Shown here: positions 13,534-31,944 of the stretch, one piece after another
Position numbering within the stretch: position 1 is the first letter of the stretch
How the letters are laid out: each line of letters begins with the position of its first letter
NCBI GenBank assembly: GCA_030041435.1
Contig: JASHNW010000069.1
Coordinates: 1 to 64,000 of the forward strand
DNA from: Acidobacteriaceae bacterium
GTDB taxonomy: Bacteria > Acidobacteriota > Terriglobia > Terriglobales > Acidobacteriaceae
Direction: 5' to 3'
DNA length: 64,000 bases
Program-made: the position numbers and the translations under genes
Notes under the pieces: generated by a model
Seen by the model: the letters and a program-made list of their open reading frames with translations, nothing else
What the model was told of the DNA's origin: nothing
The model's database searches: none

Positions 13534-13628
13534 TTCGCCGGGTGACCTGCGTCAGAAGTCGGTTGCGGCGTTGTTCTTTGGTTTGCATCAGGGCACGACG
13601 TCACCGCCGCCTCGCCCTCCGCACAGCG

Positions 13629-14417: not shown

Positions 14418-14475
14418 TGTAGCCGCTCCCGCCCCTCGATCCGCGCCCCCCACCCCGCATCTCCTAAACTCATAG

Positions 14476-14505
14476 TTGACAACCTCGCTCCCTCCGGCGT
14501 ACAGT
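14476..14505 (+). promoter_or_regulatory. Candidate promoter of the blaI-blaR1 pair
   Basis: TTGACA at 14476-14481 and TACAGT at 14500-14505 are separated by 18 bases. They lie just upstream of the palindromic operator at 14505-14520 and the GTG start at 14532, the expected layout for an autorepressed BlaI promoter. Confidence 0.55.
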
Positions 14506-14520
14506 CCTAAGTTATTAGGA
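14505..14520. promoter_or_regulatory. Palindromic operator for the BlaI-like repressor
   Basis: TCCTAAGTTATTAGGA is a perfect 6+4+6 inverted repeat. It overlaps the end of the -10 box and supplies the AGGA of the ribosome-binding site of the blaI-like gene. Another TCCTAA half-site lies at 14462-14467. Binding of a BlaI dimer here would block both transcription start and early elongation. The sequence differs from the TACA/TGTA operators of staphylococcal BlaI. Confidence 0.6.
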
Positions 14521-14531
14521 GAAGCGCCGCC

Positions 14532-14915
14532 GTGGGCAAATCCCCGAAACCCCGCTTCACCCAGCTTGAGCTCCGCATCATGCAGGTCATCTGGCGCTGC
14601 GGCGCCTCCACCGTCGCCGCCGTCCAGGCCGAGCTCCGCCCGCCTCTCGCCTACACCACCGTTCAGACCGTCCTCAACATCCTCCACCGCAAAGGCAAGC
14701 TCCGCCGCGATCTTCAGGGCCGCGCTTACGTCTACTCCGCCAAAGTCACCCAGGCTCGCGCCCTCGGCCAGGGCGTCCGTGACCTCATCGACCGCATGTT
14801 CGGCGGCTCCAGCGAGGAGCTCGTCATGAGCCTGCTCAAAAATCGCCAGATCGACGCGGCAACCCTCGCCGAGCTATCCCGCCGCTTCAGCCGCACCGGG
14901 GAGGACGAAGCATGA
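14532..14915 (+). CDS. BlaI/MecI-family winged-helix repressor
   Basis: This 127-aa protein uses a GTG start about 11 nt after AGGAGA. The winged-helix DNA-binding domain spans about residues 8-75 with FTQLELRIMQVIWRCGASTV, YTTVQTVLNILHRKGKLRRD and GRAYVYSAKVT. The C-terminal dimerisation helices (about 80-120) contain LIDRMFGGSSEELVMSLLKN. BlaI proteins repress their own operon and are inactivated by proteolysis when the partner BlaR1/MecR1 sensor is triggered. The stop codon overlaps the start of the M56 peptidase gene in ATGA, so the two are coupled. No beta-lactamase gene lies nearby, so the regulated targets may be elsewhere or concern envelope stress. Confidence 0.92.
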   Translation: MGKSPKPRFTQLELRIMQVIWRCGASTVAAVQAELRPPLAYTTVQTVLNILHRKGKLRRDLQGRAYVYSAKVTQARALGQGVRDLIDRMFGGSSEELVMSLLKNRQIDAATLAELSRRFSRTGEDEA

Positions 14916-16240
14916 TCCGCCTCGAATCCTGCGCCCTCGCTTACTTCCTCAACTCCCTCTGGCAGGTTCCGCTCTTCTTTGCCGCCGGTTGGCTCGCCGC
15001 CCACGCTCTTCGCCGACTTGGTGCCGCCGCCGAGCACCGCCTCTGGGTCGGGGTCGTTCTTCTCCAGGCCGCCGTCCCCGCGCTCTCTCTTCTGCCCTTG
15101 CAGGGTCTGCCCGGCCTCCTCGCCTGGGGCAGTGCCCGCAGCCGCAACGGCCGCGTCACCATCTTCATGGGACCCGGTTCCGCCACCGGCGGCCTGCCTC
15201 TTCCGCCGGCGCTCCTCCACGCCGCCGCCTTCGTCTCGCTCGCCGCCGCCGCCTGGTTCGCCCTCCGCCTGCTCTGGCGCTGCCTCAGCCTCCGCGCTCT
15301 CTCCCACGATGCCCTCTTCGACGCGATCCCTGCCCCCGTCCTCAACCTCTGGCAGCAATGTTGCCGCCGTTTCGGACTCGCCCGCGCCACCCTCGCCGCC
15401 TCCCCGCGTCTCTTCGGCCCCGTCACCCTCGGCATTCGCCGCAGCCTCGTGCTTCTCCCTGTCCGCATGCTCGATGGCCTGCCCGACACCGATCTCCGCA
15501 CCATGCTGGCCCACGAGTGCGCCCACATCCGCCGCCGCGACTTCCTCCTCAACCTTCTTTACGCCGCCGTCGCCATCCCCGTCAGCTACCACCCGTTCCA
15601 CTGGGCCGCGCGCGCCCGCCTCGTCGAAACCCGCGAGATGGTCTGCGACCGCATCGCCGCCTGTCTTTGTGGCCGCCGCCACTACGCCCAGTCCCTCCTG
15701 CGCCTCGCCGCTCTGCTCGTCTGTCCTGTGCCGGCCGTGGTCCCCCAGGCCATCGGCATCTTCGACACCCGCACCCTGGAAAGGAGACTCATGAAACTCA
15801 CTGAAAACCACGCCCCCCTCGGAGCCGCGCGCCGCACCGCTCTCCTGCTGCTGTGCGCCTGCTTTGGCCTCGTCACCTGCGCCTCGGCTCTCGCCGTTCG
15901 CGTGCACATCGGCGGCCTCACCGCCGCGCTCGGCTCCAGCCACACAGCCCACGTCGTCCACGTCTCGTCGGGGGTTATGCAGGCCCAGCGCATCGGGGGC
16001 CCCATGCCCGTTTATCCACCGGATGCGAAGAAGGCCGGAATCGAGGGTACCGTCGTCCTTGCCGCCACCATCGGCACAGATGGTACGGTTGAGCACCTCA
16101 CCGTCCAATCCGGGCCCTCGGCGCTCCAGAAATCCGCTCTGGAGGCGGTCCGCCAGTGGACTTACAAACCTTTCCTGCTGAACGGCGAGCCGGTAGAAGT
16201 GGAGACCACCATCAACGTCGTCTATTCGCTGCAGAAGTAA
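14912..16240 (+). CDS. BlaR1-type M56 membrane metallopeptidase fused to a TonB C-terminal domain
   Basis: This 442-aa protein begins with TM helices (LNSLWQVPLFFAAGWLAAHA and a second near residues 35-65, a third near 100-125). Next comes the cytoplasmic-facing M56 peptidase domain with zinc motif HECAHIRRRD (H201, E202, H205). Another TM segment (about 310-330) is followed by a C-terminal TonB-like domain, GGPMPVYPPDAKKAGIEG to VRQWTYKPFLLNGEPVEVET. The penicillin-binding sensor domain of true BlaR1 is absent and the TonB domain takes its place. Such M56-TonB fusions are common in Acidobacteriota. The likely role is a transmembrane signal protease that cleaves the coupled BlaI-like repressor. 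Confidence 0.9.
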   Translation: MIRLESCALAYFLNSLWQVPLFFAAGWLAAHALRRLGAAAEHRLWVGVVLLQAAVPALSLLPLQGLPGLLAWGSARSRNGRVTIFMGPGSATGGLPLPPALLHAAAFVSLAAAAWFALRLLWRCLSLRALSHDALFDAIPAPVLNLWQQCCRRFGLARATLAASPRLFGPVTLGIRRSLVLLPVRMLDGLPDTDLRTMLAHECAHIRRRDFLLNLLYAAVAIPVSYHPFHWAARARLVETREMVCDRIAACLCGRRHYAQSLLRLAALLVCPVPAVVPQAIGIFDTRTLERRLMKLTENHAPLGAARRTALLLLCACFGLVTCASALAVRVHIGGLTAALGSSHTAHVVHVSSGVMQAQRIGGPMPVYPPDAKKAGIEGTVVLAATIGTDGTVEHLTVQSGPSALQKSALEAVRQWTYKPFLLNGEPVEVETTINVVYSLQK

Positions 16241-16244
16241 GCAG

Positions 16245-16898
16245 TCACTCGCGTGGCGAAGCCGCTCGAACCCTCGCCACAATCTCCACATAACCCCGTG
16301 CCATCGCCGTCACCCGCTCCGGTTCGCCCTCGGCGATGGCCTTCGGGTCCACAAGGTCGGCCCCCACACCCAGCGCCCGCGCTCCGGCCTTCAGGAAATC
16401 CGCGACCGTCTCCAGCGTCACCCCGCCCGTCGGAATGAGCGGCAGGTCTGGGAACGGCGCCAGCAGCGCCTTCACATAACTCGCGCCCCCCATCGCCGAG
16501 CAGGGAAAGATCTTCACATAGTCCCCGCCCGTCCGCCACGCTGTGATCGCCTCGGTCGGCGTCAAGGCTCCCGGGATCGAAACCTTCCTCATCGCCTTCG
16601 TCACCTTCACCACATCCTCATGAAAGCTGGGGCTCACCACAAACTCCGCCCCCGCATCGATCGTCGCCAGCGCCTGTTGCGCCGTCGTCACCGACCCGGA
16701 CCCCAGCAGCAGCCGGTCCCCGTACTCACTCTTCAGATCCTTCAGTAATCCGATCGCTCCCGGCACCGTCATCGTCACTTCCATCACCGTGATGCCGCCC
16801 GCCACCAGCGCCTCCACCAGCGCGTGGCCCTCCTCCGCCGATCGCGCCCGCAGCACCGGCACAATCCCCGCCCCCTCGATCCACTCCTGGGTTGTCAC
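16245..16898 (-). CDS. eda: KDPG/KHG aldolase (2-dehydro-3-deoxyphosphogluconate aldolase)
   Basis: A GTG at 16898 gives 217 aa, close to the usual 210-215; an alternative GTG at 16955 would add 19 residues not seen in the family. The class I aldolase TIM barrel shows GIVPVLRARS, GGITVMEVTMTVPGA with the proton-relay Glu, LLGSGSVTTAQQA, FVVSPSFHEDVVKVTKAM, the Schiff-base Lys in GDYVKIFPCSAMGG, and LPLIPTGGVTLE. It splits KDPG into pyruvate and glyceraldehyde-3-phosphate. It lies about 150 bp downstream of a KDG kinase gene on the same strand, so the two complete the lower part of a uronate or Entner-Doudoroff-type route. Confidence 0.92.
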   Translation of the reverse strand: MTTQEWIEGAGIVPVLRARSAEEGHALVEALVAGGITVMEVTMTVPGAIGLLKDLKSEYGDRLLLGSGSVTTAQQALATIDAGAEFVVSPSFHEDVVKVTKAMRKVSIPGALTPTEAITAWRTGGDYVKIFPCSAMGGASYVKALLAPFPDLPLIPTGGVTLETVADFLKAGARALGVGADLVDPKAIAEGEPERVTAMARGYVEIVARVRAASPRE

Positions 16899-17048
16899 CG
16901 CGCCCCCCCAATCCGGCCTGCGCCGGCCCTCGCCGGAGTGAGGTAACCACAACACCGATCCCCCATAACCATGTCGCCATTCCCCCTCAACGACCCCTGT
17001 CGCTGCAACGCCCGGACGGCTCGACTCCCCATTTCCGGTAACGCGACT

Positions 17049-18167
17049 TCATCGTGCGATCCTCGCCGGCCCGCCCTGCATCACGCGCACTACCTCCGCC
17101 AGCGTTGCCGTGCTGGTGTCGCCGGCCGTGGTCATCGCCAGCGCCCCGTGTGCCACGCCGCACTCGAGCGCCCACACCACGGGTTTCCCGGCGAGCAGCC
17201 CGTAGATCAGCCCCGACGCAAACGAATCTCCGCCCCCCACCCGGTCCAGGATCTCTACCTCCCGCTGCGGCACGAGCGCAATCTCATCCCCGCCGATGGC
17301 CCTCGCCAGGGCCATCGCCCCCCACAGGTTCCGCGTCGCCGAGTGTGCCGTTCGCAGCGTCGTCGCTGCCACCTTCAGATTCGGATAGGCCGCCGCCACA
17401 TCCCGCAGCATCCGCTCGTAGCTCGCCACCGGCAGCTCGGCATAATCCTCGCCCACGCCCTCGAGCGCAACTCCCAGCATCGCCGAGAAATCCTCTTCGT
17501 TGCCCACCAGCAGATCCACTTTCCGCACCAGCTCCCGATTCACCTCCTGCGCCCGGGCCTTGCCGCCGATGCTCTTCCACAACGACTCGCGATAATTCAG
17601 ATCGAACGAGATCGGCGTCCCGTGCCGCCTGGCCGCCTCCATTGCCTCCGCGGCCACCAGCGGCGTCGTCTCCGACAGAGCCGCAAAAATGCCGCCCGTG
17701 TGGAACCACCGCGCCCCGTTCCGCGGTCCGAATATCTCCTCCCAGTCCCAGTCGCCGGGCTGCGCGGCAGCAATCGCGGTATGCCCGCGATCCGAGCATC
17801 CCGCCGCCGCGCGCACGCCAAACCCACGCTCAGTAAAGTTCAGCCCGTTGCGCACCGCGCGGCCCACGCCGTCATACGGCGCCCATCGTACCAGTTCGAG
17901 ATCCACGCCGCCCTGCAGCATCAGATCCTCTACCAGCCGCCCAACGGGATTGTCCGCCAGCGCCGTCGCCACCGCCGTCCGCAGCCCAAAGCACCGCCGC
18001 AGGCCGCGCGCCACGTTGTATTCGCCGCCGCCTTCCCACACGCTGAACTGACGCGCCGTGTACACACGCCCTTCGCCCGGATCGAGCCGCAACATCACCT
18101 CGCCCAGGCTCACTGCATCCCACCGCACCGGGCCTTCCTTCAGCCGAATCGCTTCCATCCCATCCAT
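17049..18167 (-). CDS. kdgK: PfkB-family sugar kinase, probable 2-keto-3-deoxygluconate kinase
   Basis: The ATG at 18167 gives 372 aa, a little longer than typical KDG kinases. Ribokinase-fold marks are VSLGEVMLRLDPGEGRVYTA, the Gly-rich substrate loop WEGGGEYNVARGLRRCFG, ISFDLNYRESLW, and the C-terminal PfkB signature VGGGDSFASGLIYGLLAG with the catalytic Asp and anion hole. KdgK phosphorylates 2-keto-3-deoxygluconate to KDPG, the substrate of the aldolase encoded just downstream, so the context supports the call. An insertion with GWDWEEIFGPRNGARWFHTG-like residues is seen in a subset of the family. Other ketose kinases remain possible. Confidence 0.85.
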   Translation of the reverse strand: MDGMEAIRLKEGPVRWDAVSLGEVMLRLDPGEGRVYTARQFSVWEGGGEYNVARGLRRCFGLRTAVATALADNPVGRLVEDLMLQGGVDLELVRWAPYDGVGRAVRNGLNFTERGFGVRAAAGCSDRGHTAIAAAQPGDWDWEEIFGPRNGARWFHTGGIFAALSETTPLVAAEAMEAARRHGTPISFDLNYRESLWKSIGGKARAQEVNRELVRKVDLLVGNEEDFSAMLGVALEGVGEDYAELPVASYERMLRDVAAAYPNLKVAATTLRTAHSATRNLWGAMALARAIGGDEIALVPQREVEILDRVGGGDSFASGLIYGLLAGKPVVWALECGVAHGALAMTTAGDTSTATLAEVVRVMQGGPARIAR

Positions 18168-18275
18168 TCTCAGCGCACGCCGGCCAATCCGTCCCGTTTT
18201 CCGAGACAACCTGAGCGCCTCATGTCTCGCGTGGTTCGAGAAATGGGCCGGCGCACATCGCCCGCAGTGGTTTTT

Positions 18276-18324
18276 CCTAAACCCTATCCCCTAAACCCTG
18301 GCCCCTAATCCCCATACCCTCGCT
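18276..18324 (+). repeat. Telomere-like degenerate 7-bp array (CCTAAAC class)
   Basis: Units CCTAAAC, CCTATCC, CCTAAAC, CCTGGCC, CCTAATC, CCCATAC and CCTCGCT keep a 7-bp period. They lie between the divergent kdgK and TIM-barrel isomerase genes, 50 bp before the start of the latter. The unit matches the CCCTAAA array at 38738. Confidence 0.7.
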
Positions 18325-18374
18325 CCGGGTATCATGTCTGCTTGCGGCCACAGCCGCCCGGAGCTCGCGCCCCT

Positions 18375-19334
18375 ATGAAGGTCGGAGTCTTTACCCCGCT
18401 GCTCTCCCAGCTTCCACTCCCCGCTGTTCTCGACAAACTCAGCAAGCTCCGCATTGACACCGTCGAGCTCGGCACCGGCAACTATCCCGGCGACGCGCAC
18501 TGCAATCTTTCCATGCTCGACGAGCCCAAAGCCCTCGCCGAATTTCAGGGGATCCTCGCCGATCGCGGCGCCTCCATCAGCGCCCTCAGCTGTCACGGCA
18601 ACGCCCTCCATCCCGACCCCGCCCGCGCCAGGCACGACGCCGATGTGAGCCGCCGCACCGTCCTCCTCGCCGCAAAACTCGGCATTCCCACCGTCGTCGA
18701 TTTCTCCGGTTGCCCCGGCGACTCGCCCACCGCCACGCACCCCAACTGGGTCACCTGCCCCTGGCCGCCCGACTATCTTGATGTCCTCGAGTGGCAATGG
18801 GATAAGGTCGTCACCCCGTACTGGACCGAGCACGGTAAATTCGCCGCCGATTGTGGCGTTCAAATCGCCATCGAAATGCATCCCGGCTTCGTCGTCTACA
18901 GCCCTGAAACCATGCTGCGTCTCCGCGCGGTCGCCGGCCCCTCCGTCGGCGCCAACCTCGATCCCAGCCATCTTTTCTGGCAGAACATCGACCCCATCGC
19001 GGCCGTCCGCGTTCTCGGCGACGCCGTCTTCCACGTCCACGCCAAAGACACGCAGCTCTACCCCGCCAACCTGCCTCGCAGCGGCGTGCTCGACACCAAA
19101 CCTTACACCGACGAGCGCCACCGCGGCTGGATCTTCCGCACCGTCGGCTACGGCCACGGCGCCGAGTGGTGGAAGGAATTCGTCTCCACCCTCCGCATGT
19201 ACGGCTACGACGGCGTGCTTTCCATCGAACATGAAGACTCGCTCCTTTCCGCCGAAGAAGGCCTTAGCAAAGCCACCGCTTTCCTCAACGACCTCATCGT
19301 CCGCGATCAACCCGGCGCCGCCTGGTGGGTATAA
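18375..19334 (+). CDS. Sugar phosphate isomerase/epimerase (xylose-isomerase-like TIM barrel)
   Basis: The ATG at 18375 starts MKVGVFTPLLSQLPLPAVLD and gives 319 aa; an upstream TTG at 18342 is less likely. AP endonuclease 2-like TIM-barrel features are VELGTGNYPGDAHCNLSMLD, SALSCHGNALHPDP, the metal-ligand Glu in IAIEMHPGFVVYSPETMLRL, NLDPSHLFWQNIDP, VFHVHAKDTQLYPANL and LSIEHEDSLLS. These His/Glu/Asp residues are the divalent-metal site of ketose epimerases and inositol-type isomerases. It has no signal peptide, so it acts in the cytosol. It heads a plus-strand run with the Gfo/Idh/MocA dehydrogenase and MFS genes and probably shares their substrate. Confidence 0.88.
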   Translation: MKVGVFTPLLSQLPLPAVLDKLSKLRIDTVELGTGNYPGDAHCNLSMLDEPKALAEFQGILADRGASISALSCHGNALHPDPARARHDADVSRRTVLLAAKLGIPTVVDFSGCPGDSPTATHPNWVTCPWPPDYLDVLEWQWDKVVTPYWTEHGKFAADCGVQIAIEMHPGFVVYSPETMLRLRAVAGPSVGANLDPSHLFWQNIDPIAAVRVLGDAVFHVHAKDTQLYPANLPRSGVLDTKPYTDERHRGWIFRTVGYGHGAEWWKEFVSTLRMYGYDGVLSIEHEDSLLSAEEGLSKATAFLNDLIVRDQPGAAWWV

Positions 19335-19365
19335 GGCGCAAAACAGCAGGCAATTTGAACCTTCT

Positions 19366-20529
19366 ATGACCACAATCACTCCCATCCGCACTGCCATCTT
19401 CGGCACAGGCTTCATGGGCCGCGTGCATCTCGAAGCCCTGCGCCGCGTCGAGCACGTCGAAGTCGCCGCCATCGCCGGCCGCAACACCGTCGCCGCCCGG
19501 CAGCTCGGCTCGGCCTTCAACGTCCCACGCCTCAGCCCGGAAGCCGTCCTGAGCGACCGTACCATCCAGGCCGTCCACCTCTGCACGCCCAACGCGCTGC
19601 ATTTTTCGCAGGCCAAAGCAGCGCTCCTGGCCGGCAAGCACGTCCTTTGCGAAAAACCCCTCGCCATCTCTGCCGCCGAAGCCCTGGAACTCGTCGAACT
19701 CGCTTCTAAACGAGACCTGCGCAACGCGGTCTGTCACAATCTCCGCTGCTACCCCATGGTCCAGCAGATGCGCGCCATGCGCGACGCCGGCAGCCTCGGC
19801 GAAATCCTCGTCGTCCAGGGCGCCTATTCCCAGGACTGGCTCCTCTACGACACCGACTGGAACTGGCGCGTCGACTCCGCAGCCGGTGGCCCCTCCCGCT
19901 GCATGGCCGACGTCGGCTCCCACTGGTTCGACATAGCCGAACACCTCACCGGCCTCCGTGTCACCGCGCTCTGCGCCGACCTCCAGACCTTTCACAAGAT
20001 CCGCAAACAGCCTCGCGGTCCCGTCGAAACCTTCGCCAACAAGCTGGCCTCCGAATCCGACACCATCGACACGCCCGTCGACACCGAAGACATGGGCGCT
20101 GTGATCTTTCGCATGGGTCAGGCCCGCGGCTCCATGACGGCCAGCCAGGTCTCCGCCGGCCGCAAGAATCGCCTCAGCATCGAAATCTACGGCAGCAAAG
20201 CCGGCGTTGCCTGGGATCAGGAGCGCCCCGACGAGCTCTGGATCGGCCATCGCGACAGCGCCAACTGCATCATCGTCAAGGATCCTTCGCTCCTCAAGCC
20301 CGCTGCCCGCGCCTACGCCGACCTTCCCGGCGGCCACAGCGAAGGCTACGACGATACATTCAAGCAGCTCTTTCGCCGCTTCTATGCGTCGATCGCCGAC
20401 GCCAACGCCCCAGGCGACTACCCGCAGTTCACTGACGGTCTGCGCCAGCTCGTGATCCTTGAGGCCGAACTCGCCAGCAGCCGCACCCGCGCGTGGATCG
20501 ACCTGCCCGCTACAGAAAACGGCAACTGA
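19366..20529 (+). CDS. Gfo/Idh/MocA-family NAD(P)-dependent sugar dehydrogenase
   Basis: The ATG at 19366 gives 387 aa. The N-terminal Rossmann domain has RTAIFGTGFMGRVHLEALRR and the family motif HVLCEKPLAISAAEALELVE containing the catalytic EKP Lys. The C-terminal alpha/beta domain includes GGPSRCMADVGSHWFDIAEH, with the conserved Asp and His of the active site. Family members oxidise a hydroxyl of sugars, inositols or glycosides, often producing 3-keto or 2-keto intermediates. The gene sits 31 bp after a TIM-barrel isomerase and 13 bp before an MFS transporter, a frequent trio in carbohydrate loci. A clear ribosome site is not seen. The substrate is unknown. Confidence 0.9.
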   Translation: MTTITPIRTAIFGTGFMGRVHLEALRRVEHVEVAAIAGRNTVAARQLGSAFNVPRLSPEAVLSDRTIQAVHLCTPNALHFSQAKAALLAGKHVLCEKPLAISAAEALELVELASKRDLRNAVCHNLRCYPMVQQMRAMRDAGSLGEILVVQGAYSQDWLLYDTDWNWRVDSAAGGPSRCMADVGSHWFDIAEHLTGLRVTALCADLQTFHKIRKQPRGPVETFANKLASESDTIDTPVDTEDMGAVIFRMGQARGSMTASQVSAGRKNRLSIEIYGSKAGVAWDQERPDELWIGHRDSANCIIVKDPSLLKPAARAYADLPGGHSEGYDDTFKQLFRRFYASIADANAPGDYPQFTDGLRQLVILEAELASSRTRAWIDLPATENGN

Positions 20530-20542
20530 AAGGAAGCACCCC

Positions 20543-21676
20543 TTGTTGATCACTGCCGCAGTTGTCGCAATCTTTGTGTACGGCATGATGGCCGCGATGC
20601 TGGGCACCATCCTGCCCGACCTCTCCAGCCGCTTCCAGCTCACGCCGCGCCAGAACGGCACCATCGCCTTCGCCCAGGCCCTCGGCCTCATGCTGGCCTC
20701 GCTCGGCGTCGGCCCGCTGCTCGACGACTTCGGCAAGAAAGCCGGCCTGATTCTCGGCCTCGCCTGCATCGGTCTCGCTCTCAGTCTGCTGCCCCGGTCC
20801 ACCGGCTACCGCGGCATTGTCTTTTTGCTGTTCCTGCTCGGCGTGGGCGGCGGCATCGTCGTCACCGGAGCCAACGCACTCACCAGCGATGTGGGAGAAG
20901 CGCATCGCGCCATCGCGCTCAACCTGGTCAACCTCTTCTTTGGCCTCGGCGGCCTCGCCACGCCTTTCATCTCCGCCAATCTCTTCAGGCGCGACTGGGT
21001 CCGCCTCTGCTACACCATCGCCGGTCTTACTCTCGTCACCCTCGTCATTCAGGTGGCCGTCCATATGCCGCCGCCCACCGGCGCAGGCCGCTTCATCTTC
21101 TCGCATGCCGGCCCTGTGCTCGGGCGTCCGCTTCTGTTCCTGCTCGGCTTCTTCCTGTTTCTCTATGTTGGCTGCGAGGTCGGCGTCTGGAACTGGCTCG
21201 TGCGCCACCTCATCGCGCAGGGCGTTCCGGAATCCCACGCCCTCTACATCCTCTCCCTCGGCTTCGCCCTGGGCATGCTCATCGGCCGCGTCGCGGTCGC
21301 GCCCATTCTCATTCACGTATCCGCCGTGCGGGTCACGCTCTGGGCATCTGTAGCCATGGCGGTTACAACATTCCTCATGCTCCGCGTCCACAGGACTGCC
21401 GCGGCTGCCGCGCTCGTCTTCCTCGCCGGCCTCTCCATGGCGCCCGTCTTTCCCACCACGCTGGCCATCACGGCTACTGCCTTTCCCAGCATGACCGGCA
21501 CAGCTCTCGGCATCGTTATCACCTTTGGATGGGCAGGCCTCGCCCTCAGCTCCCGCGTCATCGGCAGCATTGCCGGCGCGGACGCGCGCCGCCTGCGTCA
21601 GGCTCTCCTCGTCATCCCCGCATCCGCCGTCATCATGATCGGCCTGAACCTGGCGATCATCTCCGCCCTGCGTTAG
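20543..21676 (+). CDS. Major facilitator superfamily transporter
   Basis: A TTG at 20543 (or 20546) preceded by AAGGAAG gives 377 aa starting LLITAAVVAIFVYGMMAAML. Eleven to twelve hydrophobic helices are visible, including GIVFLLFLLGVGGGIVVTGA, AIALNLVNLFFGLGGLATPF, LGRPLLFLLGFFLFLYVGCE and ALGIVITFGWAGLALSSRVI. The pattern resembles the FucP/GlcP (sugar:H+ symport) branch of the MFS. It closes the plus-strand isomerase-dehydrogenase run and probably imports the sugar handled by those enzymes. The TTG start is chosen because no ATG precedes the first membrane segment. The 7-bp array at 21678 begins two bases after the stop. Confidence 0.87.
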   Translation: MLITAAVVAIFVYGMMAAMLGTILPDLSSRFQLTPRQNGTIAFAQALGLMLASLGVGPLLDDFGKKAGLILGLACIGLALSLLPRSTGYRGIVFLLFLLGVGGGIVVTGANALTSDVGEAHRAIALNLVNLFFGLGGLATPFISANLFRRDWVRLCYTIAGLTLVTLVIQVAVHMPPPTGAGRFIFSHAGPVLGRPLLFLLGFFLFLYVGCEVGVWNWLVRHLIAQGVPESHALYILSLGFALGMLIGRVAVAPILIHVSAVRVTLWASVAMAVTTFLMLRVHRTAAAAALVFLAGLSMAPVFPTTLAITATAFPSMTGTALGIVITFGWAGLALSSRVIGSIAGADARRLRQALLVIPASAVIMIGLNLAIISALR

Positions 21677-21677
21677 C

Positions 21678-21824
21678 CGCGATCCACTATCAGCTATCAG
21701 CTATCCGCTACCCGCTACCCGCTATCCGCCATCTGCCATCCGCCATCCGCCATCCGCCATCAGCTATCCGCCATCCGCTATCTGCCATCAGCTATCTGCT
21801 ATCCGCTATCCACTGTCCGCTACC
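21678..21824 (+). repeat. Long 7-bp tandem array (NGCYATC class), 21 units
   Basis: Twenty-one heptamers, mostly CGCCATC, CGCTATC, AGCTATC, TGCCATC and CGCTACC, run with no phase slip over 147 bp. The array begins two bases after the MFS stop codon and its last full unit contains the stop (CTA at 21820-21822) of the convergent exported isomerase gene. Variation is concentrated at positions 1, 4 and 6 of the unit. It fills the whole gap between the two genes. Confidence 0.9.
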
Positions 21825-22722
21825 CGCTGAAGTTCTTCAGCCAATTCGCGTCAACCTGCAGCGCGGCCATCGGCGCCATATCCGGAAACGCCTCCTGCTC
21901 CACGTAAATATGCCGGATGCTGGCCTTCTGCGCCGCCGCAAAAATGCTTTTGTAGTCGATGCTCCCCTGGTTCATCTCCGTCGAAACCGGCTCTTCGCCC
22001 GGCTTCCACCCCTCCAGCTTGAACTCCTTCACGTGCAGCTGCGTGAACCGCGTCGGATACTTCGTCAAATAGTCCTCCGGCCTCGCGCCGCCAATCACCA
22101 CCCACCCGCAATCCATCTCCATCGTCACCAGGTGCGGGTCGGTGTTCTTCAGAATGATGTCGTAGGGCCGCACGCCGCCTTCCTTGTGGTGGAACTCCAC
22201 GAAGTGGTTGTGGTACCCAAAATGAACCCCCGCCTCCCTGACCTTCCTCCCAATCTCGTTGAACTGGTCCGCATTCCACTTCCAGTCGTCCAGCGAAACC
22301 GCCTCCATCGTCGCGTTCCAGCTCAGCCCTTTCGCGCGCGATGGGTCCCGCATCATCGGCGCGGAGCAAATGATGTACCGCAGTCCCAGGTCCTTCGCGT
22401 AGTGGATAATCTCGTCCAGCTGCGGCTTCAGCTGCGCCAGCGCATAGTGGGCGCTCACGCACCGCAACCCGGCATCCGCCATGGCCTGCTTCACATCCGC
22501 TGCCGAGTGATCGAAAAAGCCCGCTGCCTCCACGTCCTGGTAGCCCATCGCCGCCAGTTGCTTCAGCGTTCCCGCATAATCCTTCGGCAGAAAGTCCCGC
22601 ACCGAGTAAAGCTGCAATCCCACCGGCAGCCCCAGCGGATTCGCCAACGCGCTCCGCGCCTCCAGCATGGCCGCGCACGCCGCCGCCGTCTTCACAAACG
22701 TCCGTCTCGAAACTACAGCCAT
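21820..22722 (-). CDS. Exported sugar phosphate isomerase/epimerase-like TIM barrel (Tat signal)
   Basis: This 300-aa protein starts MAVVSRRTFVKTAAACAAML, a twin-arginine signal (SRRTFVK) with cleavage near ARSALA. The xylose-isomerase-like barrel follows with GLQLYSVRDFLPKDYAGTLK, YQDVEAAGFFDHSAADVKQA, VHFGYHNHFVEFHHKEGGVR (likely metal ligands), TMEMDCGWVVIGGARPEDYL, FTQLHVKEFKLEGW and RHIYVEQEAFPD. Location outside the cytoplasm argues against a phosphorylated substrate. Recent work on related exported barrels points to keto-sugar or glycoside chemistry, but this is inference. It lies 23 bp downstream of the GH79 gene and is probably cotranscribed with it. Confidence 0.9.
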   Translation of the reverse strand: MAVVSRRTFVKTAAACAAMLEARSALANPLGLPVGLQLYSVRDFLPKDYAGTLKQLAAMGYQDVEAAGFFDHSAADVKQAMADAGLRCVSAHYALAQLKPQLDEIIHYAKDLGLRYIICSAPMMRDPSRAKGLSWNATMEAVSLDDWKWNADQFNEIGRKVREAGVHFGYHNHFVEFHHKEGGVRPYDIILKNTDPHLVTMEMDCGWVVIGGARPEDYLTKYPTRFTQLHVKEFKLEGWKPGEEPVSTEMNQGSIDYKSIFAAAQKASIRHIYVEQEAFPDMAPMAALQVDANWLKNFSG

Positions 22723-22745
22723 CGTGTCGTCCCTTTCATGTCCGC

Positions 22746-24302
22746 CTATTTGTAACCGTCAATGTGAAAAGTCACCAGCGCCGCGCTCCCCGGCGGCAAT
22801 TCAATCTGCGCCAATCCCTCGTGAACCGGCAACTCTTCCTCGGGCGCCGCGTTCCACGTCCCGCTGCCGCCCACCGGATTCTCCCCCAGCGTCACGTCCT
22901 GCGTATCGTCCAGCCGTGCAGCGGCCAGGCGCAGCGCCCGCGCGCGAGTCGCCTGTTCGCCGCAGTCGATGGTCAGTTGAATCGACCGGTCGTCGTGCTT
23001 GTTGAAGAGAACCGCCTTCACCGTGCCGCGCGGCATCTCGCCATCGTTGATCACTCCGTACGCCTTCAGCAGAGGTGCCGCATCCTGGTTGTCAAGCCGT
23101 GCATCGATCAGATGCCCCGGCCCGGCCTCGGCAAAAAGCAGCATGCCATAATAAATCGGTCGCGCCGTAAAGCCGTTCGCCACCGTCCCCGCAATCGGCG
23201 TGTACCAGCCATACCCGCCGCCGTGAAAGTTAATCCCCACTCCCCCGGCAGCCGCCAGTTGGTACATCAGATCCGCACCCCACAGCGCTGATGCGAATGT
23301 GTCGCTCACGCCCCGCTTGCCGCCCTGGTAGCACGAATTCGTCTCCGCCAGCCGAAACGGCAAATTCGACTCCGCCTTTGTCTCCGCCATCCCCTGAAAT
23401 TCCGCCCTCAGCTGCGCACTCGGCTTCAGCAGCCGCTCGATCGTCATCGACGGATTTTCCGGCGGACCCTCCGCATAATAATGCTGCGAAAGAAACGCCA
23501 CCTCGCTCTTAAATTGCCTCGCAAACGGCACCAGCCACTCGTTGTTGAACGCCGTGTCCGGTCCCGCAAACGGCGCGTTCGGCACCTTCTGCCGGATCAC
23601 CTCGTAAAAGTGCTGCCATTCCTGCGCAAACTGTGCAAAGTTGTAATCCGGCTTGCGCAGCCCGTTGCGCGAAAACAGATCCGGCTCATTGCAAAGCTGG
23701 AACGCGATCAGCCTGTCGCCCATCGTCCGCATCGCAAAGTCCGCTTCCGCCGCGGCCGTCTCCGCGGATTCCGTCCCCATATTCAGCCCGTAGATCAGTT
23801 TCCATCCCGTGGCATCGATGAATCCGCGCAGGTTCCTCACCGCTTCGGGCGTAATCTTCTTCGGCGGTGGCGGCTTGTGCCCCTTGTCCGGCCCCACCGC
23901 CTGCTCAATCACGTTCGCCTCGTTCTCCTGCTGAATCGCGGCGCTTTCCTCCGGCGTCATATCCGGCGCCCAATAGCAGTACTCGCTCGTGTTGCCGCCG
24001 ATACGCAGCACCCCGGATGCCCCCAGCCGCCGCACGAACCCAATCAGCTCGGTATTCGTCGGAGCGAAGAATTCCGGCTCGCTCAGTTGCGCGCTCTCAT
24101 AACTCAGCCCGGCAAAGTCCGCCGCGATCGGGTTGCCCAGCTTCTTCGCATCGAGCGTCAGCCGCAGCGATACAGAAGAGGCGCTCTCCGCAAATCCCGT
24201 CCGCCCGCACAGCGCCGCACCCGACGCAAACACAGAAGCCCGCAAAAATGCCCTGCGATCCATGGCCGCCATTCGACCACACCCCTCCGCTGGCTGCAAC
24301 AT
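22746..24302 (-). CDS. GH79-family glycoside hydrolase (probable beta-glucuronidase)
   Basis: The ATG at 24302 follows TGAGGAGAG and gives 518 aa; ATG 24272 is an alternative. A Tat-like signal (MDRRAFLRASVFASGAALC) precedes a (beta/alpha)8 barrel. The acid/base Glu lies in QLCNEPDLF (E206) and the nucleophile in RLAETNSCYQGG (E320). Their spacing of 114 residues equals, as I recall, the E173/E287 spacing of the Acidobacterium capsulatum GH79 enzyme. A C-terminal beta domain ends in LPPGSAALVTFHIDG. The enzyme should release glucuronate or a 4-O-methyl derivative from glycosides outside the cytoplasm. It shares a leftward run with the exported isomerase, downstream of the TonB receptor. Confidence 0.85.
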   Translation of the reverse strand: MLQPAEGCGRMAAMDRRAFLRASVFASGAALCGRTGFAESASSVSLRLTLDAKKLGNPIAADFAGLSYESAQLSEPEFFAPTNTELIGFVRRLGASGVLRIGGNTSEYCYWAPDMTPEESAAIQQENEANVIEQAVGPDKGHKPPPPKKITPEAVRNLRGFIDATGWKLIYGLNMGTESAETAAAEADFAMRTMGDRLIAFQLCNEPDLFSRNGLRKPDYNFAQFAQEWQHFYEVIRQKVPNAPFAGPDTAFNNEWLVPFARQFKSEVAFLSQHYYAEGPPENPSMTIERLLKPSAQLRAEFQGMAETKAESNLPFRLAETNSCYQGGKRGVSDTFASALWGADLMYQLAAAGGVGINFHGGGYGWYTPIAGTVANGFTARPIYYGMLLFAEAGPGHLIDARLDNQDAAPLLKAYGVINDGEMPRGTVKAVLFNKHDDRSIQLTIDCGEQATRARALRLAAARLDDTQDVTLGENPVGGSGTWNAAPEEELPVHEGLAQIELPPGSAALVTFHIDGYK

Positions 24303-24392
24303 TGCTTCTCTCTCCTCATTATTTATTCTTGCGCGCAAAACAAACGCAGTGGAGCCTTCGCCCCACTGCGCGGAAATTAAGTCTGCACGTGC

Positions 24393-27300
24393 TTAGAAGA
24401 GGAACTTCCCACCGAACTGCAGTTCGCGCGGATCGTAAGTACTCGTGACCTGCCCGTAGGTGGTGTCGCCCGTGCCCGTGTCGATGGAATTCCATTCCGT
24501 GTGGTTGAAGGTATTGAACGATTCGACCCGCAGCTGGAAATGCGGACCTTCTGCCCGCGATGTCAGACCGAAGTCCTTATACGCCGACAGGTTCCAGTTG
24601 AACAGCCCGGGACCGACGATTGCATCCTTGCGTGCGTTGCCGAATCCCTCATTGCCGCCCCCGGCCCACGGCGCAGTCGGTGCCGCGAACGATGAGGTGT
24701 TGAACCAACCCGCCTGCCTCTTCTGGTAGCTCACCGGCCCCACCACGTTCGGCCGGTTGGCAGTGTTGCCGCCCAGCCCCAGCGTGTCCGGGCCGTTGTA
24801 GTAGATGTTCACCGGCGATCCCGCTTCAGCCTGCGTTACGCCGGACACTTCCCATCCCCCCAGCGTCTCGCGCAGCAGGTCGCTCGAGTGCATAAAGAAG
24901 GGCAGGTCGTAAATGTAGTTAGCGTTCAGGATATGCCGCCTGTCGAAGTTACCCGACCCGCGGTCGTATTTCGGATCGTAGGGATCGGAGAGTGTTCCCC
25001 CTGTTCCCGCCTCGGTCGAAGTCGTGAGGTCGGCGCTCTGAATGTCGATCTCATGCGAATACGTGTAGGCCAGCTGCACCGACAAGCCATGCCGATTGTC
25101 CATGCGCAGTGCCGCCTGCAGCGAGTTGTAGTTGAAGTTCGTCGCGTTCTCCTCCTGCCGCATGTTGCTGTACCCCAGATAGGGACGGTAGAGGTTCGCG
25201 TTCGCATTCAACCCGTTCTTGCCTCCCGTCGCCACCGCCTCGCGCTCAGCAACCGCGCTCAGCGGCAGATCGTTGATCTCCCGCAGGTCGTCCTGGTTCC
25301 ACCCTTCCGAGCCCACATACTGTACGGCCGCCACCACCGCGGGAGCCAGCTGATGCTGGATGCCCAGGCTGTACTGCGCCGTACCCGGATTCGGATAGTA
25401 GTAGCTCAGGTTGCTCATGCTCGCCGCAGCTACCGGAGCCGTCGACGACGCGCCCGTCAGATCGTTGGTGTGCGGATCGGAAAAGTAAACGTCGTTTACG
25501 CTCGGCTGATACGAGAACGGCGGGTTGGTGCTTAGGTTGTAAATGTCGTTCCCCTGCACCCGCTCGTAAAAGATGCCCGCGCCTCCACGCAGAACCGTCT
25601 CGCCGTTTCCGGCAAAGTCGTACGCAAAACCGATGCGCGGCTCCACGGTAAAGTAATCGTTCTTCACCAGCCCTCGCGGCACGCCGTTCATTCCCGCCAG
25701 TTCCATGCCATTGAGGTAGAAAGTATTGCCGCCTGCCGTGGAAAGTCCGGCGCTGGGGCCCGAGCAGCCAGGATCGAGTGCCGACGTGCAGATCGTTCCA
25801 GCGCTCGAGAAGCTGGCGGCGTCCGCGGAGTTGTAGGCCGCGGGGTTGAAGTTCGACACCTGGTTGTTCTTCTCATAAACATGGGGCAGCGCGTCGTAGC
25901 GTAACCCCAGGTTCAGAGTCAGCCGCGGCAACAGGTGCCAGTTATCCATGGCATAGAACGAATAGGTGTTGTTCAGCCAGTGATCCGTTTGCAGCGACTG
26001 CAGCTGGGCATACGAGCTGGCGAATCCCAGCAGGAAGTTCACGTAAGAGTCCCCGGAAAACTGCGACCCGTTGAAGGTGTAGTCGCCTTCCGTGTCCGCC
26101 TGCTGCTGCTGGTTCTTGTCTTCGCGCATGTAGGAGAACCCGAACTTCAGCGCGTGCTTGCCCCTGGTCCAGGTCAGGTCGTCGCGCAGCTGGTAATCCA
26201 GGAAGGAGTTATGCCACGGCCAGTAAATCACCGACCAGGTGGTGTTCAGCGGCCCCCCGCTGAATCCAACCTGTGGCAGCCGGTTCTCGGCGTTGTTGCC
26301 GTTGAAGAATCCCGTCGCGCTCCATCCCGAAGGTTCTGCGTACGTTCCCGCCGGCTTCACGTTGATAGTGTTACCGTTCACGTACAGACCCGTCTCGTTC
26401 AGTATTGTCGGCGAAATGGTCTGTGTCAGCCGCACCGCTGCGCCCCACGACGGGTTATTGAATACGTCGCCTACCGTCGTATAGTTGTCGCCGCTCCACA
26501 TGGTGGGGAAGATCGTCTGCGACATCGCATCGTGAATCCAGCTCCCCATCAGGTGGTACTTATCGGTGAAGTTATGGTCCACCCGAATCACGTCCTCACG
26601 CACAAACGTCGGCTGCTTCGGCGAAGCAATGTAGTTATCGCTCCCCGAGTTAGGCTTCGGAATAGCCCCGGTGCCCATAAACAGTACCGCGTTGGGGTCG
26701 AGCAGGTTCGCCGGAATCACGTTGCCGGGGAACGGCTGCCCAGGCGTCAGGTTATCCGCCGTGTATGTTGCCAGCTTGGCGGGATCGCTCGTCGCCGGAA
26801 CGATGGGCGTCTTGCCGTTGTTCCACGGAGTGTAGGTAAGCGCCGAGCCGGAGGTCGGGAAATCGTTCTCCGGAACCGTCGGCGTTACCGAGGCGTTCGC
26901 CCCCTGAATGTAGCGGCGCCACTCCTCGTTCACAAAGAAAAACGTCTTCTGCTTCGATTCGTTGTAGACGTGCGGAATCCACAGCGGCCCGCCAAGGTTG
27001 CCGCCGAAAATATTCAGCCGCAGCTCCGGGCTCGCCTGATGGTTCTGCTTGAAGAAGTAGTACCCGGAGTCGAAGTCGTCGTTGCGATCGAATTCCCACA
27101 CCCCGCCGTGAAAGTGCTGCGACCCGCTTTTCATCTCGATCAGCACCGTGCCGCCGGAAGATATGCCGTAGTCGGGTGGATAGTTGCTGGCCAGCACCTG
27201 AAACTGCGCGATCGCGTCCGGAGAGGGAAGTGCGTCCAGTTTTCCGCCCGATCCCCGGTCGTATACCTCTCCGCCATCGACCAGAAAGTCGTTATGGTCG

Positions 27301-27878
27301 GGGCGCATGCCGTTGAAGCTGATAGTCGCCGTGCTGGTCTGCGCAGCGACGCCGTTGAAGGACGGCAGATTGCTCGAGACGCCGGTGCCCAGAGTCGTCA
27401 GGCTGGTGATATTGCGCCCGTTCGTCGCGATCTGGTTTACCTGCGCGCCGCTGATCAGCGTGCTGACTTCGTTAGTCTCGGCTTGCACCTGCAGGGTGTT
27501 CGCTTGTACGGTCACCGTCTGGTTGTTCGCCCCGACCCTAAGCTGCGCGTTCTCCTGGAGCGTCTGCGCCACGTCGACGACGATGCTGGTCCTCTTGTAT
27601 GTCTCGAAGCCCGGAGCCGTCACTGTCAGCGTGTAATGCCCGATCGCCAGTCCTGGGATGTTATAAAGACCGCTGTTGTTGCTGACCGTAGACTGCCGCC
27701 TGCCCGTTTCATCCTGCGTTGCCGTCACCTTTGCATTCGGGATCACAGCGCCGCTCGGGTCGGTCACCGTACCGGTGATTGCCGAGCTTACCTGTGCCCA
27801 CGATGGAGTGCTGAACAATAACATCGCCACAGCGGCGACGCACAGACAGGGTACTAGCCTTCTGATTCGATTTGACAT
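24393..27878 (-). CDS. Oar-like TonB-dependent receptor with carboxypeptidase-regulatory N-domain
   Basis: The ATG at 27878 lies 6 nt after GGAGG and gives 1161 aa; an upstream frame start at 27899 lacks a ribosome site. Parts in order: a signal peptide (LVPCLCVAAVAMLLFSTPSWAQ), a carboxypeptidase-regulatory-like beta sandwich (about 30-115, ITGTVTDPSGAVIPNAKVTA), a plug domain (about 120-260, ending in SFNGMRPDHNDFLVDGGEVY) and a 22-strand barrel up to the terminal FGGKFLF. It is an outer-membrane receptor for large ligands driven by TonB. Huge Oar-like receptors of this type are expanded in Acidobacteriota. Its position upstream of the GH79 and exported isomerase genes suggests glycan or glycoside uptake. 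Confidence 0.93.
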   Translation of the reverse strand: MSNRIRRLVPCLCVAAVAMLLFSTPSWAQVSSAITGTVTDPSGAVIPNAKVTATQDETGRRQSTVSNNSGLYNIPGLAIGHYTLTVTAPGFETYKRTSIVVDVAQTLQENAQLRVGANNQTVTVQANTLQVQAETNEVSTLISGAQVNQIATNGRNITSLTTLGTGVSSNLPSFNGVAAQTSTATISFNGMRPDHNDFLVDGGEVYDRGSGGKLDALPSPDAIAQFQVLASNYPPDYGISSGGTVLIEMKSGSQHFHGGVWEFDRNDDFDSGYYFFKQNHQASPELRLNIFGGNLGGPLWIPHVYNESKQKTFFFVNEEWRRYIQGANASVTPTVPENDFPTSGSALTYTPWNNGKTPIVPATSDPAKLATYTADNLTPGQPFPGNVIPANLLDPNAVLFMGTGAIPKPNSGSDNYIASPKQPTFVREDVIRVDHNFTDKYHLMGSWIHDAMSQTIFPTMWSGDNYTTVGDVFNNPSWGAAVRLTQTISPTILNETGLYVNGNTINVKPAGTYAEPSGWSATGFFNGNNAENRLPQVGFSGGPLNTTWSVIYWPWHNSFLDYQLRDDLTWTRGKHALKFGFSYMREDKNQQQQADTEGDYTFNGSQFSGDSYVNFLLGFASSYAQLQSLQTDHWLNNTYSFYAMDNWHLLPRLTLNLGLRYDALPHVYEKNNQVSNFNPAAYNSADAASFSSAGTICTSALDPGCSGPSAGLSTAGGNTFYLNGMELAGMNGVPRGLVKNDYFTVEPRIGFAYDFAGNGETVLRGGAGIFYERVQGNDIYNLSTNPPFSYQPSVNDVYFSDPHTNDLTGASSTAPVAAASMSNLSYYYPNPGTAQYSLGIQHQLAPAVVAAVQYVGSEGWNQDDLREINDLPLSAVAEREAVATGGKNGLNANANLYRPYLGYSNMRQEENATNFNYNSLQAALRMDNRHGLSVQLAYTYSHEIDIQSADLTTSTEAGTGGTLSDPYDPKYDRGSGNFDRRHILNANYIYDLPFFMHSSDLLRETLGGWEVSGVTQAEAGSPVNIYYNGPDTLGLGGNTANRPNVVGPVSYQKRQAGWFNTSSFAAPTAPWAGGGNEGFGNARKDAIVGPGLFNWNLSAYKDFGLTSRAEGPHFQLRVESFNTFNHTEWNSIDTGTGDTTYGQVTSTYDPRELQFGGKFLF

Positions 27879-28314
27879 GCAGACCTCCGAAACAGACATT
27901 CTGGGGTTGGATTGTTTTTATTTCCGGCTTGTGCCGGCTTTTTAAGTGCTGCCTTGCAGTTTTACTTCACATAAAACATCACTGTCAAATAATGCGGCTT
28001 TTCCAATTTAGTAAAAATGCCAATACTCAAGCGTTTTAGTTGTGTGTCGAGTGCGCAGACATGGGTCGGTCCTCTCAACCGGTGTAATCCGTAACACCTA
28101 AGTCATGGATAAATCGAAAGGTAATAGAAGGGAAGGTAACTATAACAAAGCACGCGCCTGCGAAATCCACATAAGAAGACATGCTCTGCTTATGGAAGAG
28201 GCTGTGTCCGCTCGATCCGGATCACCGGCAAGAAAGATTCAATGCAGAGGGTCGCTCACATGCGCCGCGCGCGGACAATGTCGCGCCATTCTGCGCCACG
28301 CGCAGTCGGGGATT
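27879..28314. other. 436-bp intergenic region upstream of the TonB receptor gene
   Basis: This AT-richer stretch has no convincing gene. On the minus strand TTGACA (complement of 27983-27988) is followed after 17 bases by GTAAAA, a possible promoter for the receptor. CCGGC (27924-27928) and GCCGG (27933-27937) can form a small hairpin in the leader, next to T/A runs. The part from 28105 to 28314 is open on the plus strand, but only as the start of a frame antisense to murB. Confidence 0.4.
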
Positions 28315-29370
28315 TCACCCGGCCGATCGAGCCTGCCCGTCCCCGCCGAAGCCGACCAGCACCGGCTCCGGCTCCAGGCGAACCTGGAATTTCGCTTCCA
28401 CCGACGCTACGATCTGATCGCGCAGCGCCACAACCCCGCGCGCTGTCGCGCCGCCGCGATTGATCAGCGCCAGAGCGTGGCGGCTGGAGACCGCCACGTC
28501 GCCCAGCACGTACCCCTTGTGATATCCCGCCTGCTCCACCAGCCAGGCCGCAGGAATCTTCACGAATCCCCGCGTAGCCGCATAACGCGGCACCGCAAAG
28601 GCCGCTGTCGCTGCGATCTCGTCATACATCTTCTCCGGCACCACCGGATTCTTGAAGAAGCTTCCCGCACTGCGGCAATCCGCTTCGCCCTCCACCAGCA
28701 GCATGCCCTTCGCGTGACGGATCTCCCGCACCGCGGCTGCTGCCTCCGCCAGCGTTGGCGGCGTGGCGCGCCCCGCGAAATACCGCTTCAGGTCCGCATA
28801 CGAAAGCACCGGATTCGCGTTCCTGCGCAGGCGCAGGCTCACCCGCGTCACAACAAAGCGCCCGCGATGCGACGAGTTGAAGATGCTTCTCCGGTACGCA
28901 AACCCGCACGCCGCCGCGGGCAACTCGGAGAACGTCAGGTGGTTCAGATCCAGCACCCGCACCGACGTGATCGTCCCCGAAACCTCCTGCCCGTAAGCGC
29001 CCACGTTCTGCACCGGCGTTCCTCCCACGCTCCCCGGAATCCCGGCCAGGCACTCCAGGCCCCCATAGCCCCGCTCGATCGCCAGTGAAACAAAGTCGTC
29101 CCAGTTCTCGCCCGCGGCAGCGTGGAACATGTCGCCCTTCTGTTCAACGCCCTTCAGCGCAATGTGCAGCACCAGCCCAGGAAAGCCCTCATCGGCCACC
29201 AGCAGGTTGCTGCCGCCCCCCAGCACAAACAGCGGAGCGCCACGCTCCCGCGCAAAACGCACCGCCTCCACCACCGAGTTCTCGTCTTCGGCCTCGGCAA
29301 ACCAACGCGCCGGGCCGCCGATGCTGAAGGTTGTGTACGGCGCCAGCGCAACTTGTTCCCGCAACTGCAT
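28315..29370 (-). CDS. murB: UDP-N-acetylenolpyruvoylglucosamine reductase
   Basis: The ATG at 29370 gives 351 aa starting MQLREQVALAPYTTFSIGGP. The FAD-binding domain shows LFVLGGGSNLLVADEGFPGL, the AIERGYGGLECLAGIPGSVG motif and PVQNVGAYGQEVSGTITSVR. The MurB C-terminal domain has RRSIFNSSHRGRFVVTRVSL, the catalytic Ser in CRSAGSFFKNPVVPEKMYDE and PAAWLVEQAGYHKGYVLGDV. It reduces UDP-GlcNAc-enolpyruvate to UDP-MurNAc with NADPH. The YRRSxF region marks a type I MurB. It is divergent from brxA with a gap of about 100 bp. Confidence 0.95.
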   Translation of the reverse strand: MQLREQVALAPYTTFSIGGPARWFAEAEDENSVVEAVRFARERGAPLFVLGGGSNLLVADEGFPGLVLHIALKGVEQKGDMFHAAAGENWDDFVSLAIERGYGGLECLAGIPGSVGGTPVQNVGAYGQEVSGTITSVRVLDLNHLTFSELPAAACGFAYRRSIFNSSHRGRFVVTRVSLRLRRNANPVLSYADLKRYFAGRATPPTLAEAAAAVREIRHAKGMLLVEGEADCRSAGSFFKNPVVPEKMYDEIAATAAFAVPRYAATRGFVKIPAAWLVEQAGYHKGYVLGDVAVSSRHALALINRGGATARGVVALRDQIVASVEAKFQVRLEPEPVLVGFGGDGQARSAG

Positions 29371-29471
29371 CTGAAAGAGGTTATCAGGATGGTGGCATCT
29401 ACCGGGTCCTCCCCGTACAATGAAAGAGACCACGCGACTTCGTCGACCGTGGCACCGGAGGAGTGAAGAGA

Positions 29472-29897: not shown

Positions 29898-29915
29898 GTT
29901 TTTTGCACTGATACA

Positions 29916-29943
29916 AAAAGGCTGCGCCCGCGCGCAGCCTTTT
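29916..29943. terminator. Bidirectional rho-independent terminator
   Basis: A perfect 12-bp stem (AAAAGGCTGCGC pairing with GCGCAGCCTTTT) closes a 4-base loop. A-runs and T-runs on both sides let it work for brxA on the plus strand and for the converging diguanylate cyclase gene on the minus strand, whose stop lies 30 bp away. Confidence 0.88.
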
Positions 29944-29973
29944 CTCCGCCTGCCCTTTTCCCGCACGCTCCGC

Positions 29974-31934: not shown

Positions 31935-31944
31935 TCGAAAACAG

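Follow-up and report, generated by a model that had tools for sequence, protein, structure and literature searches.

Intergenic arrays of 7-bp units in the genome of this acidobacterium meet genes preferentially with one end, lose uniformity away from that end and follow the GC skew of their surroundings in orientation. Taken together, the period, the polarity, the gradient of decay and the orientation by strand seen in this genome, and in its genus to the extent sampled, are best read as directional slippage. On balance we lean slightly towards a polar, strand-dependent 7-bp slippage that is halted by selection at gene edges, its strand and replication steps being those we infer; the TAG stop codon that an isomerase gene shares with one such array would then be a by-product.

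A phase-constant heptamer array between two convergent genes

In the window, i.e. the whole 64,000-nt stretch of DNA that was analyzed, a first-pass annotation had placed a heptamer array of constant phase at 21678–21824, between two convergent genes of which one, a putatively exported isomerase gene, ends inside it. The array is real and its limits were right to within a few bases (Table 1): TRF reported a period of 7 with 82% matches, 0% indels and a score of 157, and 119 of 145 positions were identical at lag 7. Against its lag-7 score of 80, none of 100 order-3 Markov shuffles of the window exceeded 15. NGCYATC describes 15 of the 21 units; the six exceptions (CCGCGAT, CCACTAT, CCGCTAC three times, and CCACTGT) deviate by substitution only, so that phase is indeed kept without slip among differing units. 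It consists of head-to-tail 7-bp units without indels, as do the bacterial heptameric intergenic simple sequence repeats (SSRs), and is by kind an ordinary repeat of heptamers.

The plus-strand MFS_1 transporter gene ends in a TAG (21674–21676) directly before the first base of the array and adjoins the 3′ end of its G-rich strand, which is presumably the older end. At the G-rich 5′ end, the TAG of the minus-strand isomerase-like gene (21822–21820; AP_endonuc_2) forms part of an array unit, which agrees with both the convergent arrangement and the gene end within the array. The minus strand of the array holds 16 stop triplets distributed over all three frames, the plus strand none. Three units had been said to present a stop in every frame; the frames are covered by the array as a whole, but only 7 of 19 three-unit windows carry a stop in each, because GCCATC units read GATGGC.

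Table 1. Coordinates of genes, heptamer arrays and the skewed domain in the window
Feature	Position	Strand	Details
Strongly skewed domain	1..43000	.	Most genes with a GC3 skew between –0.25 and –0.6, on either gene strand; boundary near 43 kb approximate
Heptamer array, GCTCCCA/GCTACCA types	2306..2385	+	1 bp from next gene edge, TAG stop
Short heptamer array, CGCTGAT type	5412..5439	+	
Degenerate heptamer array, CCTAAACCCTATCC	18276..18320	+	Scored as period 14
MFS_1 transporter gene	20459..21676	+	ORF; Pfam MFS_1, E=2.6e-25; gene finder start 20576
Heptamer array, unit CCGCTAT/CCGCCAT	21677..21828	C-rich strand = +	21.7 copies; TRF
Xylose-isomerase-like TIM-barrel gene	21820..22722	–	ORF; Pfam AP_endonuc_2, E=1.2e-10
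Heptamer array, CCCTAAA/CCCTATA	38738..38794	+	6 bp from predicted start codon
Heptamer array, GCTCCCA type	39195..39232	+	1 bp from TAG stop codon

A family of heptamer arrays in the genome

Triples of NGCYAYC matched 85 times in the 5.77-Mb genome (overlapping matches counted), the pattern read backwards not once. We scanned 838 kb of this genome—the window, 31 stretches around arrays and nine picked regardless of arrays, such that 31 of the 40 fetched stretches had been selected for GCYAYC arrays—at a threshold of 15 with periods 3 to 25 competing. Period 7 yielded 68 arrays and period 14 nine, the latter all intergenic, vs. 34 arrays (10 intergenic) for the remaining periods together, each of which contributed 0–11 arrays with 0–5 intergenic. 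An order-2 Markov control gave no array. When only period 7 was scanned for, 74 arrays were found, or 72 once neighbors were merged. With GCTATC-type arrays at 41 places by BLAST and 65 of the 68 period-7 arrays intergenic, the family matches dispersed, mostly extragenic heptamer SSRs.

Units range over GCTATCC, GCTCCCA, CCTAAAC, CTGATCG and CTGTGCT and, as judged by eye, merge into one another within arrays, the longest of which comprise about 35 units (L235:193–440). The nine stretches chosen blind to arrays (180 kb) contained none of period 7. Contigs C117, C23 and C108 gave 32 arrays per Mb, a value that overstates the genome-wide density, since these contigs were known to bear arrays and the blind stretches held none. 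By gap type, 68 arrays divided into 11 convergent, 37 tandem and 20 divergent cases, for 15.5, 75.1 and 39.9 kb of intergenic DNA, respectively; on this informal comparison of counts, array numbers are roughly proportional to the available DNA, and a preference for convergent gaps was discarded. Three arrays fell within predicted genes (L259 1751–1781, L254 5428–5492 and L251 13049–13080) and may represent gene-calling errors or in-frame tolerance.

Arrays approach genes with the 5′ end of the G-rich strand

Gene edges were taken from a small Markov gene finder, and arrays were oriented by their G-rich strand, with d5 and d3 denoting the distances of its 5′ and 3′ ends to the nearest gene. The de-duplicated 1.214 Mb contained 75 arrays, 71 of them between two genes, three inside genes and one at an edge. 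Among the 71, the median of d5 was 11 bp and that of d3 79 bp; 35 arrays came to within 10 bp of a gene with the G-rich 5′ end and five with the 3′ end. In total, d5 was smaller than d3 in 54 of 71 cases (p=1e-5), and the direction of the gene made no difference. Results were similar with a reversed scan and with thresholds of 12 and 22.

In a set of 68 arrays, G-rich 5′ ends lay within 10 bp of 25/31 stop-side and 9/37 start-side edges, G-rich 3′ ends within 10 bp of 5/28 and 0/40, respectively; stop-side edges are thus the closer ones. The expectation that arrays keep to gene ends therefore stands by half: one array end does tend to a gene edge, but start-side edges are included. Two opposed arrays shared a gap in three cases, each time with the G-rich one preceding the C-rich one, which is the order that growth of either array toward the gene next to it would produce.

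Pooled over nine congeners, the rule was followed by 21 of 27 arrays at threshold 12 and by seven of nine at threshold 15 (Wilcoxon test of end distances: p=0.07, n=27, and p=0.43, n=9, respectively). In arrays free of TAGC, polarity was seen in only 14 of 23 (p=0.40; within 10 bp, 8 vs. 2).

Uniformity declines away from the gene

Lag-7 identity was 0.841 in the half of the array at the G-rich 5′ end, i.e. the gene side, and 0.785 in the opposite half (n=53, p=6e-4). The gradient was present in arrays that kept a distance of more than 20 bp from genes at both ends (0.849 in the near vs. 0.766 in the far half; n=18, p=0.008) and not significant in those touching a gene (0.832 vs. 0.802; n=26, p=0.15). 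Past the 3′ end, some periodicity remained, with 0.327 identity at lag 7 vs. 0.267 for lags 5, 6, 8 and 9 (p=4e-12). The corresponding signal beyond the 5′ end was weak (0.290 vs. 0.266, p=0.06), as was the gene-side residual of arrays with both ends more than 30 bp from genes (0.286 vs. 0.258, p=0.05). Congener arrays had no significant uniformity gradient (n=6, p=0.31; n=8, p=0.69).

Array orientation follows local GC skew

The C-rich strand of an array tends to be the one on which its surroundings, too, are rich in C, with orientation agreeing with local GC3 skew in 68 of 75 cases and in 62 of 67 where the absolute skew exceeded 0.15. Per stretch, orientation correlated with GC skew (rho –0.85) and not with gene strand (rho –0.08); both orientations occurred in 6 of 19 stretches with several arrays. 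Agreement was complete in TAGC-free arrays (23/23) and amounted to 9 of 12 in congeners. Arrays discordant with the skew still had the G-rich 5′ end nearer to the gene (6/6 of those between two genes). The skew link suggests that slippage takes place mainly in one strand of the replication fork, whichever of the two this is.

GC3 skew in this genome reaches about 0.5 or more either way, independently of gene strand, and is organized in domains that extend over tens of kb and are set off by changes of sign or drops to zero; on contigs C117, C23 and C108 the sign changes more than once. All period-7 arrays of the window fall in its strongly skewed domain and all are C-rich on the plus strand; genes beyond 43 kb have GC3 skews of –0.12 to +0.17. 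Over 5-kb bins, the median absolute GC3 skew was 0.42 with arrays vs. 0.19 without (17 and 102 bins, p=3e-5), and skewed stretches lacking arrays also occur (e.g. L264 and L268). Strong skew that is independent of gene strand was further observed in congeners G006 and G008, and a weaker one in G003. Numerous inversions with respect to replication could account for the domain-wise skew.

No skew flip was found at dnaA, and an origin there was rejected as the source of the skew. In strongly skewed surroundings, 289 of 518 genes lay on the G-rich strand (p=0.009), as did 51 of 97 genes over 1.5 kb. These counts fit weakly with the G-rich strand being the leading one; the constant sign at dnaA does not bear this out. 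In small samples, array density tracked absolute skew across genomes untidily, with values per Mb and skew of 42 and 0.39 in G008, 38 and 0.37 in G006, 32 and 0.22 in G000 (three contigs), 15 and 0.27 in G002, G005 and G011 together, 14 and 0.17 in G009, 13 and 0.28 in G004, 0 and 0.28 in G001, and 0 and 0.19 in G003.

Stop codons and the orthologous gap

Stop codons within 14 bp of an array were considered touched and comprised 15 TAG, nine TGA and three TAA (n=27), compared with 286, 437 and 227, respectively, for all predicted genes (n=950). TAG is hence over-represented (p=0.005 against the rest), in part as expected, many arrays having been selected with a pattern that contains TAG. A stop triplet recurred 7 nt downstream in 23 of 949 genes, vs. 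2–13 genes at lags 4–6 and 8–10.

The isomerase gene was found next to the MFS gene in five of 11 congeners. In G002, G003, G005 and G006, the two genes end 3–24 bp apart with no array between them; no array was found in the gap of G011 either, but that sequence has Ns. By eye, the isomerase C-terminus reads FPG followed by TGA in G003 and G005, and FSG followed by TAG here. On this ground we dropped the notion that the array remodeled the C-terminus; the change may have been confined to the stop codon and one or two others. Judging from these gene ends, the array appears to have advanced roughly to the ancestral position of the isomerase stop, which is now one of the array's own TAGs.

GC skew of the MFS gene, taken in the direction of that gene, was –0.42 to –0.58 in G002, G005, G006 and G008, –0.19 in G004, –0.15 in G011, about 0 in G003 and G001, and +0.32 in G007. 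Such differences among congeners could stem from rearrangements relative to replication.

Directional slippage and alternative explanations

In the model towards which we lean, backward slippage of the nascent C-rich strand would make new units, mostly on the last units copied, and the array would lengthen toward the gene as older units are pushed away and decay. Insertions of 7 bp in the coding region would shift the frame and be removed; growth would come to a halt where the array meets a stop codon, or some bases short of a start codon. An array bearing TAG could take over a stop codon at little cost, which may be the route by which the isomerase's TAG came to lie in its array. The first-pass annotation had offered, as one of two options, that arrays spread by slippage and are tolerated at gene ends. 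This option gains support here and is sharpened by the end polarity, the strand rule and the decay gradient.

Orientation could also be acquired passively, if arrays grew without strand preference and their units adopted the skewed local composition, replication strand having no part in it. We regard this as unlikely, if far from negligible, and it is compatible with polar growth. It would sit well with the skew agreement being equally strong in arrays free of TAGC and with the same skew at third positions of the surrounding genes; however, it leaves end polarity and decay gradient unexplained, as it does the near-gene G-rich 5′ ends of the skew-discordant arrays. The other option of the annotation, selection keeping the array because it ends the isomerase gene with stops in all frames, strikes us as very improbable despite the three-frame stops of its minus strand and the excess of TAG among touched stops (15/27). 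All-frame stops on the G-rich strand, which is the sense strand for a touched stop, were not enriched in stop-touching arrays (17/27 vs. 24/44 for the others, p=0.62), and 24 of 75 arrays had them on neither strand. Moreover, arrays also touch start-side edges (9/37 within 10 bp), and the orthologous gap does without an array in four congeners, as well as in the fifth with its Ns.

That heptamer blocks are a dispersed element, copied between places by transposition, recombination or reverse transcription, appears improbable as well. The 41 genomic places with GCTATC-type arrays and the recurrence of the same heptamer across many phyla would speak for such copying, but many different heptamers share the one period, and congeners G003, G006 and G008 have other heptamers or none, GCYATC quadruples occurring in 0 of the 11 congeners. 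Still less is to be expected of a role in transcription or nucleic-acid structure, be it Rho entry on C-rich RNA, a terminator hairpin or a quadruplex. The plus strand after the MFS stop is C-rich, G-poor and weakly folded, and several other arrays (GGGAGCT and TTTAGGG types) have G-runs every 7 bp. Yet for 25 of the 30 stops that arrays touch within 10 bp, the sense strand is the G-rich one, contrary to a rut site, and the Rho-site reading was rejected on this count. Neither strand of the array at 21677–21828 folds better than shuffled sequence (z +1.59 and –0.18), no Rfam model matched at E≤1 within 20400–23000, the G-rich strand of this array has only three GGG, and arrays touch starts, too.

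In a genus whose arrays seem to have a growing end, trail off into a decaying tail and are oriented along with strand composition, the site and strand of the next unit can be predicted. Directional slippage could also offer a plain route by which genes gain new stop codons without selection for them.

Relation to described heptamer repeats

Heptameric STRR repeats are known from cyanobacteria. The arrays share with them the tandem 7-bp unit as a favored longer period; the partial accounts consulted describe no polarity or skew rule for STRR. Among the matches listed in the literature on repeats, skew, stop codons and slippage, there was no published account of heptamer arrays in Acidobacteriota; tandem repeats and GC skew are mentioned in the excerpted Solibacter genome paper (PMC3174227).

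Heptamer repeats with gene-edge placement are, however, already known. According to the excerpts of Rehm 2015 (PMC4692102), GGGAATC and GGGGA(C/T)T heptamers of Xanthomonas and Nostoc lie within 50 bp of stop codons, overlaps with the stop included, and have the 5′ end of the G-rich strand near the ORF irrespective of ORF orientation, with no leading/lagging preference in Xanthomonas. The position rule is therefore not new: the G-rich 5′ end is nearest to the ORF here, too (54/71; medians 11 and 79 bp), which at 21677–21828 is the isomerase side. Also common to both, as far as those excerpts go, are a 7-bp unit, mostly intergenic and dispersed location, variable copy number and stop overlaps. 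In the same excerpts the repeats have one consensus with G-runs, quadruplexes were shown and four units are preferred; here there are many heptamers, some with G-runs, lengths extend to about 35 units and orientation is tied to local GC skew. With three GGG in 152 nt, the array at 21677–21828 lacks the G-run in every unit that goes with quadruplex formation in the Rehm type. In its excerpted form, Rehm 2015 describes the preference for period 7 and the placement at one gene side and leaves both without an answer. As regards phase variation, in which a change in copy number would switch a gene, the neighbors of the array at 21677–21828 encode a transporter and a sugar-isomerase-like enzyme.

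For TAACTGA heptamers, the excerpts of MacGregor 2015 (PMC4679880) report that the stops they carry limit gene-end overlap to at most 18 nt. These repeats of Beggiatoaceae, Cyanobacteria and Bacteroidetes resemble the present arrays in being 7-bp, intergenic and equipped with one-strand stops that limit such overlap. They are described there as one fixed heptamer with 2–6 copies in the genome studied by MacGregor and as many as 43 in others, located for the most part directly before start codons, unlike the drifting heptamers here, which occur at both start and stop edges. The present units (GCTATCN, GCTCCCA, CCTAAAC, etc.) are not a fixed TAACTGA upstream of starts, and stop-side edges are the closer ones. 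The first-pass annotation's statement that it knew of no described equivalent with this stop-codon placement thus fails, as overlaps with gene ends or stops are reported in the excerpts of both papers (PMC4679880, PMC4692102).

Heptamer arrays in other genomes and phyla

Among 61 genomes searched, GCYATC quadruples were found in five, namely the source genome and four others, none a congener. The reversed pattern, used as a control, was likewise found in 5 of 61, four of them congeners, and marks other heptamers there. GCTATC quadruples occur in many phyla, in at least 119 stretches.

As a tentative generalization, which we would sooner doubt than adopt, bacterial heptamer arrays might arise by directional, strand-specific 7-bp duplication at the replication fork, with growth at one end that continues up to the next gene, takeover of stops where possible and a decaying tail. 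Array orientation and tails would in that case be a record of past replication direction, in a genus with many alternating GC-skew domains. Among the matches listed, GCTATC arrays of other phyla had no skew link (65 of 126 agreeing) and touched genes with the opposite end (median d3 19, d5 97; n=81). Gene edges for this comparison came from models pooled by GC class, and 45 of the 126 arrays were left out as intragenic or without two flanking genes. Generality of the position and skew rules across phyla thus failed for the matches listed, and any general theory must accommodate these arrays, which break both rules as stated.

For instance, in the Moorena loci among L072–L184, the 5′ end of the GCTATC strand of GCTATCA arrays was nearest to the gene in 10 of 11 of the matches listed; these arrays touch genes by the end opposite to that of the acidobacterium. 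In the stretches L069–L187 from many phyla, which were fetched for the heptamer, intergenic arrays other than the seed ones were mostly of period 7 (at least 120), followed by periods 14 (13) and 8 (10). Lastly, the placement in Acidobacteriota rests on ADOP-family permeases, which numbered 57 above the curated cut-off in the acidobacterial genome and occurred in 0 of 14 control genomes; five of the 57 lie in a row at C105:90848–103449.
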